Positions 2,354 to 38,934 of a DNA stretch of 41,517 nucleotides are shown here, piece after piece. The notes below the pieces were generated by a model. That model was not told where the DNA came from. It was given only the letters and a program-made list of their open reading frames with translations, and made no database searches. The first letter of the stretch is position 1. Each line of letters starts with the position of its first letter. This DNA comes from Oscillatoriales cyanobacterium. GTDB taxonomy: Bacteria > Cyanobacteriota > Cyanobacteriia > CACIAM-69d. Location: contig RDXB01000046.1 in assembly GCA_004292515.1 (NCBI GenBank), forward strand, positions 1 to 41,517. Reading direction: 5' to 3'. The position numbers and the translations under genes are program-made.

Positions 2354-2698
2354 GTGAAACTTGTTTCCCTAACGGATTTGCCGATCGAATCCGTGTCGCA
2401 TAATCCGGCGATCGCCAAGCAAGTAATGCTCCGCAAAGGCGACTTGCCCCATCTGACCAACTTTGCCCAAGCGCGCCTTGGGCCAGGACAAGTCTCGCCC
2501 GCCCACGCCCACCAGGATATGTGCGAAGTATTTTTCATCGAAGCGGGTACGGGGCAAATTGCGATCGATGGCGTACCCCATGTCCTAGCCCCCGGCACTT
2601 GCATTGCCGTCTCCCCCCAAGAAACCCATGAAATCACCAACACAGGCCTAGAGGATTTGGTGATCACTTACTTTGGCTTGCAAGTGGAGGCCGCCTAA
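2354..2698 (+). CDS. Single-domain cupin protein
   Basis: A 114-residue protein with one cupin barrel. Motif 1 is visible as PAHAHQDMCEVFFIEAGTGQI, where the His residues and Glu are the usual metal ligands. Motif 2 is seen as PGTCIAVSPQETHEITNTG, whose His would complete the site. A metal-dependent enzyme or small-molecule binding role is expected from the family, but the substrate cannot be read from the sequence. The start is GTG at 2354, with GCGAGGAGATG about 8-14 nt upstream serving as ribosome-binding site. The ATG at 2344 is in another frame. The gene follows the zinc-ribbon gene by 21 bp. Confidence 0.85.
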   Translation: MKLVSLTDLPIESVSHNPAIAKQVMLRKGDLPHLTNFAQARLGPGQVSPAHAHQDMCEVFFIEAGTGQIAIDGVPHVLAPGTCIAVSPQETHEITNTGLEDLVITYFGLQVEAA

Positions 2699-2912
2699 TC
2701 CACCTAGACGATTTACCGCGATGATCTGCTGAGATTCCGCCGCCCAAGCAACCGCGCCATGACAGCGATTGGGATTGCGCGCGATCGACGAGGTGGCGAT
2801 CGACCAGTCAGGGGCCACCAATCAGAGGCCACCAGTCAGGAGACGCTTAATATCAACACCTGAGAATCAACGCCTTAGACTAGAAGGAAATGTCTTAGAA
2901 TAGGTAGTCAGC

Positions 2913-2931
2913 TTTGAGAATGATTCTCAAA
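2913..2931. promoter_or_regulatory. Fur-family (probably Zur) operator
   Basis: The 19-bp sequence TTTGAGAATGATTCTCAAA is a perfect inverted repeat around one central base. This is the 7-1-7 type architecture bound by Fur-family regulators (Fur, Zur, PerR). The next gene downstream encodes a histidine-rich COG0523 GTPase, a class often derepressed by Zur when zinc is scarce, so Zur is the most likely ligand. A possible -10 element TAGAAT lies at 2896-2901, which would put the operator over the transcription start. The distance to the CDS is about 340 bp, giving a long leader. The palindrome is direct evidence; the identity of the regulator is inference. Confidence 0.65.
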
Positions 2932-3000
2932 CGATGTCCGCCAATCCATAACTGTGCTGAATCAGCACCATTTCCATGATTCACCCACAGCCCACCGCTC

Positions 3001-3051
3001 AAGAGTTCATTTCTTAAGAGTTCATTTCTTAAGAGTTACTGCTCAAGAGTT
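3001..3051. repeat. 15-bp tandem repeat in the cobW leader
   Basis: AAGAGTTCATTTCTT occurs twice exactly (3001-3015, 3016-3030), followed by two degraded copies starting AAGAGTT. The array lies between the Fur/Zur-type operator and the GTPase gene. A second direct repeat, GGGATCGCAACATC, occurs at 3076-3089 and 3090-3103. No conserved open frame is present in this 576-bp spacer. Confidence 0.75.
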
Positions 3052-3274
3052 GTTGACGTAGGATTGGTGGCGATCGGGATCGCAACATCGGGATCGCAAC
3101 ATCGATATCGCTGCAATGTTCATTCGGCAGCATTCATTCAGCGGTCTTCAACTCAGCGTTCGTTTCGATCAGCCATATCACTCCCGATCGCACTCCCCCC
3201 AAGCCAGCCATTGCCTCACCTGTTTCTGTTCGTTTCCATAGACTCACACAGCGCCAGCCATTGACAAACTTGCT

Positions 3275-4459
3275 ATGACTTCTAACACCTACTCTCCGAT
3301 CGAGACCGTAATGTCTGCGCCCAAATTGGGCTTACCCGTAACCATCATTACAGGTTTTTTAGGGAGCGGAAAAACCACCCTGCTAAACCATATTTTGACC
3401 AACCAAGAGGGGATTAAAACTGCAGTCTTAGTCAATGAATTTGGCGAAATCGGCATTGATCAAGAACTGATTGTTGAAGTCGGTGAAGATAACGGCATCA
3501 TCGAATTATCCAACGGCTGCATTTGCTGCAACATCAACAATGACCTCGTGGATGCAGTCTATCGCGTGCTCGAGCGCGAAGAACGCATTGACTACTTGGT
3601 GGTTGAAACCACTGGTCTGGCTGACCCGCTGCCCGTAGCACTCACTTTCCTGGGCACTGAACTGCGGGATATGACGCGCCTAGACTCGATCGTGACCCTT
3701 GTGGATTGCGCCAACTTCAGTCTTGATTTGTTTAACAGTGAAGCGGCCTATAGCCAAATTGCCTATGGCGACATCATTTTGTTGAATAAAACAGACTTGG
3801 TTGATCCAGCCACAGTGGATGCCCTCGAAGTCCGGATTCGTGACATCAAACAAGGGGCACGAATTTTGCGAACCCAAAATTCAGAAATTCCCTTGCCCCT
3901 CGTTTTAAGTGTGGGATTGTTTCAGTCCGATCACTACTACAATCCCGATGATGATCATGCCAACCATGACGCACATAGTGATCACAATCACAATCATGAT
4001 CATGACCATGATCATCACGATCACTCAAATTGTGATCACGATCATGGTCACTGCGAGCATGATCACTCGGATGACCATACCCATGATGGACATGCTCACT
4101 CGAACTCCGATCACGATCATGGCAACTGCGAACATGATCATCATGAACACCATCATCACCATTCCAATCACTTAGAAAATGATGGTTTTGTGTCGGTTTC
4201 GTTCCAGAGCGATCGCCCCTTGAATATTCGGAAATTCCAGCTTTTCCTAGATGAACAATTGCCGAGTGAGGTCTTTCGCGCCAAGGGAATTTTGTGGTTT
4301 CAAGAAAGTGAGCAGCGACATATTTTTCACCTGTCCGGTAAGCGATTTACCCTTGAAGATGACCTGTGGAAAGGCCAGCCTAAAAATCAGTTGGTGCTGA
4401 TTGGGCAAAACCTTGATCAGCCCCTGTTGCTACAGCAATTGGAGAGTTGTCTGGCTTAA
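3275..4459 (+). CDS. COG0523 GTPase, CobW/ZNG1-type metallochaperone
   Basis: A G3E-family P-loop GTPase likely to deliver zinc (or a related metal) to client proteins at the cost of GTP. The G1/Walker A is GFLGSGKTTLLNH near residue 30. The metal-binding CICC motif sits in SNGCICCNINNDL. The switch region is ETTGLADP and the G4 motif is NKTD. A long insert rich in His and Asp (about residues 225-300, coded at 3940-4170) should bind several metal ions. The CobW C-terminal domain follows (DGFVSVSFQSDRPLNIRKF to the end). A second Met at residue 13 could be the start. A Fur/Zur-type palindrome upstream points to control by zinc. CobW proper (cobalamin synthesis) is less likely because no cobalamin genes are nearby. 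Confidence 0.9.
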   Translation: MTSNTYSPIETVMSAPKLGLPVTIITGFLGSGKTTLLNHILTNQEGIKTAVLVNEFGEIGIDQELIVEVGEDNGIIELSNGCICCNINNDLVDAVYRVLEREERIDYLVVETTGLADPLPVALTFLGTELRDMTRLDSIVTLVDCANFSLDLFNSEAAYSQIAYGDIILLNKTDLVDPATVDALEVRIRDIKQGARILRTQNSEIPLPLVLSVGLFQSDHYYNPDDDHANHDAHSDHNHNHDHDHDHHDHSNCDHDHGHCEHDHSDDHTHDGHAHSNSDHDHGNCEHDHHEHHHHHSNHLENDGFVSVSFQSDRPLNIRKFQLFLDEQLPSEVFRAKGILWFQESEQRHIFHLSGKRFTLEDDLWKGQPKNQLVLIGQNLDQPLLLQQLESCLA

Positions 4460-4785: not shown

Positions 4786-4856
4786 GGCGGCATGGCCAAG
4801 TGGTAAGGCAGAGGACTGCAAATCCTTTACCCCCAGTTCGAATCTGGGTGCCGCCT
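4786..4856 (+). tRNA. tRNA-Cys (anticodon GCA)
   Basis: The 71-nt cloverleaf has a seven-pair acceptor stem (GGCGGCA with TGCCGCC), discriminator U, a D-arm containing AAGTGGTAAGGC, the anticodon loop CTGCAAA with anticodon GCA, and the T-arm CCCAGTTCGAATCTGGG. CCA is not encoded. A strong terminator follows 24 nt later. Confidence 0.95.
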
Positions 4857-8079: not shown

Positions 8080-8178
8080 TATTGATCGCTTGATTGCTGT
8101 TTTTAGCAAGTGGCGATCGAACACGGCTGCTAGAAACGATTTTCCCCGGCCTGACTGGATCTCGAAATCTTGGGATCT

Positions 8179-8269
8179 TAGATCTCAGATTTCAGATTTC
8201 AGATTTCAGATTTCAGGTCTCAGATCTCAGATCTCAGATTTCAGGTCTCAGATCTCAGATCTCAGATTA
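8179..8269. repeat. Heptanucleotide array (13 units) with higher-order period
   Basis: Twelve exact-length 7-bp units of the form CAGAYYT run from 8186 to 8269, preceded by one degraded unit TAGATCT. Four CAGATTT units come first. A block of four units (CAGGTCT, CAGATCT, CAGATCT, CAGATTT) is then repeated with only the last base changed, giving a 28-bp higher-order repeat. This is like the heptameric STRR sequences known from filamentous cyanobacteria, though the unit differs. It fills most of the 376-bp spacer between two genes. A plus-strand open frame across it is an artefact of the 21-bp (3 x 7) period. Confidence 0.9.
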
Positions 8270-8999: not shown

Positions 9000-9676
9000 G
9001 AGGGGGCAAAGAAAATCACTCGGCTAGACTAGGACTCAATCCTAAACGATTGCTCTAGTTTGGCCCAAGCTGCACCATTTCTAGACCACTAGAGATTGTC
9101 TAGAGTTCCGTGGTCATCGTTCAGGGCTGTCCACGACAGTGTCCACAACACCGTTCACGATTCCATTGACCGCTGACCGCTGCCATCGATTTTGCTAGCC
9201 TCTCTGTTAGCTCTCGTGTCCTGCTCTTGCTGCGATTTCAGCTTGATGCGCTTCGTCCGATGCCTCATCACCGATGTTCCATCACCGATGCTTCATCACC
9301 GATCGCACTTTTTGGGATTGGGCTTCCGCCTTGACCATGCCTCTGCCCTGCTCTAGATGACTGCATGAGTTGTGTCAGCTCAAACTCGATCGCTCTTTGG
9401 CTGCCGGGGACTCATAAGCCCAATCCAGCCATTGCCGTTGCCGTTGCCATCCTGGCCACACCGCAATCACGACAGAGTTGATGAGCAATGACTATTTCAA
9501 CCACGACTACATCAATCCCGACCTGATCGCGATTGCCGCATCGCCCCTTCCTCGACGATCCCGTCTCCAGCCAGGATTGCTTCCTCAAGATTGCTCCTCA
9601 GCCGTTGGGTATGTTCCATTGCGCGGACTGACGGCCACCACGATTGCCCCTTAGATTTTGTTACCCCGCCGACCCT
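9000..9676. other. Long spacer before glgP, no gene seen
   Basis: Nearly 700 bp separate the vWA start from the glgP start. The frames on either strand have no credible product. A 14-bp tandem repeat (CATCACCGATGTTC, CATCACCGATGCTT, CATCACCGATCGCA) occupies 9266-9307. The stretch near 9090-9110 has paired CTAGAG/TCTAGA motifs. I see no clear promoter or RNA gene. Confidence 0.4.
9266..9307. repeat. 14-bp tandem repeat, three units
   Basis: Three consecutive 14-bp units share CATCACCGAT and differ at their last four bases. It lies in the glgP upstream spacer. Confidence 0.7.
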
Positions 9677-14434: not shown

Positions 14435-14661
14435 AGTAGTAGTGCCACTAGATTAATATGCTGGATCTATGCACCGTCACTAGTCGCATGTTGATTCTCG
14501 ATCTGCGCTACATCACAGATTCGTTTATTTCCAAGATCTTGGTAGGGGCAGGTTTCAAACCTGCCCCTACGATAATTCGTCGGGTCTATCAATTGCCGAG
14601 CCTGATTCGTCTGGCTTTCGGATTATGCCGACCCAGCGTATTGGTCTAGTAGTACCAGTAG
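14435..14661. mobile_element. MITE-like element, copy 2, carrying a second palindrome
   Basis: The left end (14435-14467) and the complement of the right end (14630-14661) agree at about 17 of the inner 21 positions. The right half matches copy 1 (12308-12354). The element is about 227 bp, twice the length of copy 1. A perfect 29-bp palindrome at 14542-14570 lies in its interior, possibly inserted there. No protein is encoded. Confidence 0.6.
14542..14570. repeat. Perfect 29-bp palindrome
   Basis: GTAGGGGCAGGTTT, a single C, then the exact complement. The motif reads the same on both strands and would form a 14-bp stem. Palindromes of this GGGGCAGG type are common dispersed elements in cyanobacteria. 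Confidence 0.75.
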
Positions 14662-17936: not shown

Positions 17937-17965
17937 TCCCCACCTGTTCCCTCAAAACAGCCTTA

Positions 17966-18025
17966 CAGCCAAGGCGCTTGCAACCAAGGCGCTTGCAGCC
18001 AAGGCACTTGCAGCCAAGGTAATTG
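17966..18025. repeat. 15-bp tandem repeat, four units
   Basis: Four consecutive 15-bp units: CAGCCAAGGCGCTTG and three variants with one to three changes. It lies between the divergent 2H phosphoesterase and YCII genes and takes up about half of that 133-bp promoter space. Confidence 0.85.
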
Positions 18026-18429: not shown

Positions 18430-18535
18430 GTTGACCTGGACTTGCGCGATCGCAACGCCCGAACCGTGTCAGAGCCGGAAGGCAGCAGCACTAAGGGATG
18501 CTTGAGATAGGCGCAATCTCCGGGTCTCTTTTTTT
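18430..18535 (+). ncRNA. ffs: SRP RNA (4.5S-type), with terminator T-run
   Basis: The signal-recognition-particle RNA core is clear: GTCAGAGCCGGAAGGCAGCA followed by GCACTAAGGG. The 5' arm GACCTGGA (18433-18440) pairs with TCCGGGTC near 18519-18526. This gives the small bacterial form of about 97 nt. A run of seven T follows at 18529-18535. A TATCGT at 18421-18426 could be the -10. With Ffh it targets membrane proteins to the translocon. Confidence 0.92.
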
Positions 18536-30297: not shown

Positions 30298-30303
30298 GGA
30301 TCT

Positions 30304-30363
30304 GGGGACTGCAGACCTGGGGACTGTAAATCTAGGGACTGTAAATCTGGGGACTGCTGCTCT
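30304..30363. repeat. 15-bp tandem repeat, four units
   Basis: GGGGACTGTAAATCT and three variants (30304-30318, 30319-30333, 30334-30348, 30349-30363). The array begins 6 bp after the DUF4079 stop and is followed by a half core of family P (CAAGGGGCTT at 30381) and AGGGGCTGTCATC. Confidence 0.85.
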
Positions 30364-36077: not shown

Positions 36078-36217
36078 CTGAAAACCTTAACCTGAAATCC
36101 TTAACCTGAAATCCTTAACCTGAAACTCTTAGTCTGAAATCCTTAACCTGAAACCTTTGGACTGAAATTCTTAGCCTGAAATCCTTAACCTGAAATTCTT
36201 AGCCTGAAACCCCGATT
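36078..36217. repeat. 14-bp minisatellite, ten units
   Basis: Ten consecutive 14-bp units of the form CTGAAATCCTTAAC (exact in four units, one to six changes in the rest). The last unit, CTGAAACCCCGATT, continues into GCCGGGGCAAGGGGCTAGTC, the truncated family P element at 36204-36250. The array thus seems to have grown from the P-element sequence CTGAAACCCTGATT. Confidence 0.9.
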
Positions 36218-38828: not shown

Positions 38829-38880
38829 GCCAGTTGCAATCATCATGTCACCCACAATCTCAGATCTAGCTAGGTCTTCA

Positions 38881-38934
38881 GCAGGAGATCTGTAAGCAGG
38901 ATCTGTAAGCGAGATCTGTAAGCAGGATATGTGG
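38881..38934. repeat. 13-bp tandem repeat, four units
   Basis: GCAGGATCTGTAA and variants, with the first unit 15 bp and the others 13 bp. It lies between the kinase and the convergent small gene. Confidence 0.8.

Follow-up and report, generated by a model that had tools for sequence, protein, structure and literature searches.

A perfect palindrome upstream of a COG0523 GTPase gene in an Oscillatoriales cyanobacterium is very probably a Zur operator, from which repression would be relieved in zinc shortage, and the long leader between the two would be a passive spacer. The DNA analysed, termed the window, is a whole contig of 41,517 nucleotides (C80) belonging to a 3.98-Mb genome, G000. A sequence-only reading of the window had proposed Zur control of the COG0523 gene, and this proposal is supported computationally because the box co-occurs at znuA (identical core) and at a znuCB-type operon (one mismatch) and recurs in two other species, G001 and G002. 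The box itself, its sharing with zinc genes, its conservation within the genus and the sensor residues of Zur are computational observations. The gene is assigned to a predicted Zur regulon by the 7-1-7 box upstream of it, the boxes at znuA and znuCB, the Zur sensory site encoded in the genome and the within-genus conservation.

The palindrome, described earlier as a perfect 19-bp palindrome of Fur-family layout, is exact, with a 9-1-9 arrangement and 12 of 12 fixed positions (Table 1). Only two odd palindromes with arms of at least 9 occur in the 41.5-kb window, one of them being TTTGAGAATGATTCTCAAA. Palindromicity alone is only weakly significant because about 0.18 palindromes of this kind, whatever their sequence, are expected per window. 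The specific core TGANAATNATTNTCA is significant beyond chance: it occurs at four places in the whole of G000, where 0.076 are expected, and its reversed pattern occurs at none. A genome search for the palindrome had been named beforehand as a check, and znuA is among the four places that it returned. The position of the candidate -10 element resembles that in the sister-species znuCB promoters, which also have TAGAAT. A consensus promoter scan of positions 2600-3400 gave no promoter near the box, and shuffled sequences give 1.1. The cyanobacterial Zur motif of RegPrecise, TNANAATGATNATCATTNTNA, as quoted in a passage of PMC9337993, scores below 13/16 at the window locus, where the box is a plain 7-1-7 box. 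At the threshold of 13/16, this motif has 2 matches over the 110 loci described below and 5 for its reversed control, and therefore discriminates poorly; the hemB/folE site fits it at its centre.

Table 1. Coordinates of the features discussed, in window positions unless another location is given
Feature	Position	Strand	Remarks
Cupin_2 gene upstream of the box, 114 aa	2354..2698	+	PF07883
Candidate -10 element TAGAAT	2896..2901	+	11 nt 5' of the palindrome; by eye, weak
Perfect 9-1-9 palindrome TTTGAGAATGATTCTCAAA, proposed Zur box	2913..2931	.	7-1-7 core at 2915-2929
Expanded leader, 343 nt	2932..3274	+	core to first ATG is 108 nt in the sister species
Tandem repeat AAGAGTTCATTTCTT, 15 bp x 2.5	3001..3037	+	
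Tandem repeat ATCGGGATCGCAAC, 14 bp x 2.3-2.8	3073..3104 or 3073..3111	+	
COG0523 (CobW-domain) G3E GTPase, 394 aa	3275..4459	+	ORF, Pfam, alignment
Alternative start ATG	3311	+	by eye, coincides in alignment with where the conserved core begins
Walker A GFLGSGKTT, aa 27-35	3353..3379	+	
NGCICC metal motif, aa 80-85	3512..3529	+	aligned to NGCICC of YjiA
ETTGLADP, Walker B region, aa 111-118	3605..3628	+	
NKTD guanine-specificity motif, aa 171-174	3785..3796	+	LLKTD at the same place in YjiA
His/Asp-rich insert, aa 225-299, including NCDHDHGHCEHDH	3947..4171	+	ends by hand count
Near-perfect box TGAGAACCATTCTCA (as read on +) before the P-loop-motif protein	L038 1501-2379, G000:C60:61984 on		

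The four perfect cores in G000 lie at the window gene, at znuA, between hemB and folE, and at the gene of an SBP_bac-type solute-binding protein. The core at znuA (Pfam ZnuA, 4.6e-80) is identical to the window core. The znuA ORF as listed begins inside its box, which makes its start uncertain, and the true start is probably further downstream. The hemB and folE genes are divergent around one box (L036 328-2495), and their products are identified by Pfam ALAD and by a FolE score above the NCBIfam cut-off, respectively. A TATAAT directly adjoins this box on the hemB side. At what we take to be its metal site, the HemB encoded beside the box has the sequence DVALDPYTTHGHDG, which lacks the cysteines found there in zinc-dependent enzymes. 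The box of the solute-binding protein, TGATAATTATTGTCA, is perfect and differs from the window core at two fixed positions; the box of the homolog in G002 is TGAGAATATTTCTCA. This protein is taken here as iron-binding by general resemblance; in NCBIfam it matches other transporter models best, none of them reaching its cut-off.

Two further places in G000 come up when one mismatch to TGAGAATNATTCTCA is permitted. One is 125 nt 5' of the znuC/znuB-type operon and the other is 21 nt 5' of the gene of a protein that has a P-loop motif but matches nothing in Pfam; this gene is a possible unrecognised Zur target. Homologs of the P-loop-motif protein are seen in G004 (39% identity, about 2 kb from the hemB box) and, as a fragment, in G005, and none was found in G001-G003. 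At two mismatches, a site appears upstream of the Fur-like gene of G000 itself.

Three Fur-family genes are encoded in G000. The first (L001) is closest to Fur structures, the second (L002) is closest to PerR structures, and the third (L003, G000:C60:23149-23490) has 7ne9 as its closest PDB entry. The code 7NE9 occurs once in PMC9337993, a paper on the Zur of Synechococcus WH8102, and on the basis of this single mention and the ligand numbering the entry is assigned to SynZur. The sensory ligands of Synechococcus Zur are given in that paper as D77, H79, C95, and H115. By hand count in the alignment, the 7ne9 chain has D, H, C, and H at positions 77, 79, 95, and 115, and all four sensory ligands are kept in L003, the one protein covered by this check. 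Passages of PMC10957091 and PMC9337993 describe boxes that overlap the -10 elements at repressed cyanobacterial Zur promoters, namely all3515, znuA, and znuC. Zur is not always a repressor, since activation of bmtA is also described in a passage of PMC9337993.

The box is conserved in the genus of the window genome. An identical core, TGAGAATGATTCTCA, precedes the orthologous gene in the same-genus genomes G001 and G002, and is thus present in all three genomes of the genus. In both species, what reads by eye as a similar cupin gene lies just 5' of the box. A site search allowing up to one mismatch was run over 12 chosen genomes, and the neighbouring genes were viewed in the family members; sites were present in 11 of the 12. 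In G001, four of six sites precede the ortholog of the window gene, znuA, or znuCB or lie between hemB and folE, and the other two have no adjoining gene matching the zinc genes of G000. The same positions account for four of the five sites in G002, and the remaining one precedes the homolog of the solute-binding protein mentioned above. G003, from the sister genus, has boxes at znuA and znuCB and also before a different COG0523 paralog (L166); the other sites (L163, L164, L165, and L167) are at genes unrelated to the zinc set of G000. The L166-type paralog was not found among the PF02492 genes of the window's genus. In G005, also from the sister genus, an 11/12 box precedes what reads as an L166-type paralog. 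The three sites in G004 are at znuA, at hemB, and at one unrelated gene. In L165 of G003, two boxes form overlapping double sites before a gene that looks oxidoreductase-like by eye, and two more COG0523 genes are on the same contig.

Beyond the genus, the box at this widespread COG0523 gene is sporadic at the threshold and in the sample used. The scan covered 110 loci, made up of the 30 best matches from a search in which each of 59 genomes gave a match, and of the top 80 of 316 matches from a second search; a few genomes are in both sets (for example, L013 and L073), three loci have less than 300 nt upstream, and the orthologs of the other 29 of the 59 genomes lie outside the scan. A box with 11 or 12 of 12 fixed positions within 500 nt upstream is present at 7 of the 110 loci, as compared to 0 of 110 for the reversed control. 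These are the three loci of this genus together with L008, L014, L017, and L107.

The protein encoded downstream had been described as a GTPase with a CICC motif and a 75-residue His/Asp-rich insert, and both were recovered at the places given in Table 1. Its membership in COG0523 follows from the presence of both CobW domains (PF02492, 195.3 bits; PF07683, 79.7 bits; both above cut-off) and of the GCXCC and GTPase motifs. The 85 residues at positions 221-305, which contain the insert, include 31 His, 19 Asp, and 3 Cys, and all 30 best-match relatives have 19 or more His within a stretch of 60 residues. The sequence is enough to make the fold clear. Among solved structures, E. coli YjiA (PDB 1nij, 4ixm; E = 4.4e-38) is nearest in sequence. 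The two proteins have the GTPase domain and NGCICC in common, whereas the alignment (query 20-216 and 302-381) does not include the insert. The ZigA equivalog model NF038288 (204.9 bits, cut-off 600) and the CobW equivalog model TIGR02475 (159.3 bits, cut-off 332.1) both score the GTPase below their cut-offs, and by these models it is not identified as ZigA or CobW. G000 has four PF02492 genes: the window gene, a second COG0523-type gene (C83), in front of which no box of at least 10/12 was found, and two others that are UreG- and HypB-like by eye.

The leader had been called unusual for its length of about 340 nt and its tandem repeats. Both the length, which is 343 nt from the 19-mer to the ATG at 3275 (345 nt from the 15-bp core), and the repeats are confirmed, but the repeats are not special to the leader, as other spacers in the window have them as well. 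The spacers flanking the box are both longer than in G001 and G002: in these two species 26 nt separate the core from the preceding stop codon and 108 nt separate it from the first ATG, as compared to 216 and 345 nt, respectively, in the window genome. The leader of folE is also longer here, at 347 nt as compared to 206 nt in the sisters. Tandem repeats with a period of 7-40 occupy 11.9% of the noncoding and 1.1% of the coding bases of the window. The corresponding values are 3.7% and 1.9% for other loci of the same genome, 6.3% and 1.7% for sister loci, and 2.9% and 2.1% for other family members, with gene calls that are longest-ORF guesses and with non-window loci that form a small chosen sample, some of them overlapping. 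The enrichment is strongest in the window, and these loci do not show a genome-wide excess or an above-sister excess elsewhere. Based on these observations, the best explanation for the long leader, found only here among the three species compared, is a local expansion of the spacers by tandem repeats. This case suggests that a 5' leader can grow threefold by short tandem duplications with its operator remaining intact.

The origin of the leader from a dispersed repeat was considered and rejected: positions 2700-3274 compared with the own genome match themselves and give 14 weak matches of 17-54 bases (best E 0.001). The noncoding tandem arrays of the window include 36078-36209, 8174-8268, 9257-9303, 17962-18019, 30300-30357, and 38880-38932, mostly with units of 13-15 bp and one of 7/28; a 14-bp unit reaches 9.4 copies.

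The 7-1-7 core is compatible with Fur boxes too, and the box could be an iron-responsive Fur operator that makes the GTPase an iron-starvation gene. This overlap in sequence between Fur and Zur boxes, the perfect or near boxes that G000 and G002 have before the putative iron solute-binding protein, and the two-mismatch site upstream of the Fur-like gene are consistent with such control. We nevertheless consider it very unlikely, as the window gene and znuA have identical cores, the window core departs from the solute-binding-protein box at two fixed positions, the partners of the box over three species are mostly zinc genes, and COG0523 genes are listed as Zur targets of Anabaena in a passage of PMC6103462. 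Joint action of Fur and Zur at the box, giving dual metal control, is somewhat easier to accept but still unlikely. The box architecture is common to both regulators and a passage of the same paper reports that Zur, Fur, and PerR cross-talk in Anabaena, yet nothing specific at the locus points to it.

The two other alternatives concern the leader. It could form a regulatory RNA element, responsive to zinc or to the ribosome, that acts after Zur. Its predicted fold is somewhat more stable than those of shuffled sequences (z = -2.52, with 1 of 100 shuffles as stable), but tandem and inverted repeats favour folding by themselves and tandem repeats alone can produce such stability. The leader does not align to the G001 and G002 leaders, which are 108 nt of different sequence, and has no Rfam match at the gathering threshold; on these grounds a riboswitch or conserved leader was rejected. 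Repeats are also common in the other window spacers and the folE leader is lengthened too, so that an RNA element is highly improbable. The 343-nt distance and a 66-aa ORF at 3064-3264 would agree with a box that controls something other than the GTPase, for example a separate leader transcript. However, the product of this ORF has no Pfam match, the leader is not alignable to those of the sisters, and the sisters have the box 108 nt from the same gene; a separate transcript is hardly credible.

In the preferred reading of the palindrome as a Zur operator, the binding of Zur, the direction of regulation, the start site, the metal, and the clients are those that we infer for the following scheme. 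With ample zinc, dimeric Zn-Zur (L003) would bind just downstream of the -10 region or over it, and transcription would be blocked. As zinc falls, Zur would lose its sensory zinc and let go of the DNA, and the COG0523 GTPase would then be made together with ZnuABC. The GTPase, with its CICC site and a His/Cys/Asp-rich insert that may hold zinc, would hand scarce zinc to its clients in a GTP-dependent manner. The 343-nt leader would act as a passive spacer, presumably one that short tandem duplications have lengthened in this species.

Zur control of the COG0523 gene is an ordinary, known type of regulation, and Zur-controlled COG0523 genes of cyanobacteria appear in passages of PMC2770081, PMC6103462, and PMC10957091. 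In Anabaena sp. PCC 7120, alr1197, all1751, and all4722 are COG0523 genes of the Zur regulon, together with znuABC, hemB2, and folE2 (passages of PMC6103462; all4722 in PMC4787780), whereas in the window genome folE and hemB have one box between them, separate from that of the COG0523 gene. The Zur regulon of Synechococcus sp. PCC 7002 is described in PMC4628125 as a zinc ABC transporter with hemB-II and folE-II, induced by TPEN, and the product of the third gene in that cluster is GTPase-like and has a methylmalonyl-CoA mutase domain. In the window genome, in contrast, the COG0523 gene lies on another contig and has its own box. In other bacteria, COG0523 subfamily 1 (YciC/ZigA) has a CXCC motif and often a His stretch and lies behind a Zur box, according to a passage of PMC2770081; the window protein differs in not being ZigA by the NCBIfam model.

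The analysis adds a well-supported predicted Zur target that is common to the three searched species of the genus and outlines a small zinc-saving regulon in this cyanobacterium. The fresh point is that the COG0523 gene carrying the box apparently changes between sister genera, as judged from six genomes of one family compared without a tree. It is conceivable, if somewhat doubtful, that a COG0523 chaperone common among cyanobacteria, where it mostly has no recognisable Zur box, was put under Zur in this genus, replacing the dedicated Zur-controlled paralog that is present in the sister genus and absent here, and that the operator was kept while the spacers grew by tandem duplication. If such a swap of paralogs took place, the link between Zur and COG0523 would have been kept while the carrier gene changed.

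Some minor observations were made along the way. Among the 80 best of 316 protein relatives, one belongs to a metagenome-assembled genome titled Tatlockia, and the remaining titles are, as far as we recognise the names, cyanobacterial. Tatlockia is a gammaproteobacterial name. The contig in question, JACCVJ010000578.1 (L145), encodes a relative that is 64% identical to the GTPase and is probably mis-binned. Just 3' of the GTPase gene is a tRNA gene (4786-4856), and the same tRNA adjoins the gene in both sisters (by eye); a bacterial small SRP RNA is present at 18433-18529. The window also has a 29-bp perfect palindrome, GTAGGGGCAGGTTTCAAACCTGCCCCTAC, at 14542-14570. With 38 occurrences of its half pattern GTAGGGGCNNGTTT in the genome (17 forward, 21 reverse), as compared to one for the reversed control, it looks like a dispersed repeat family.
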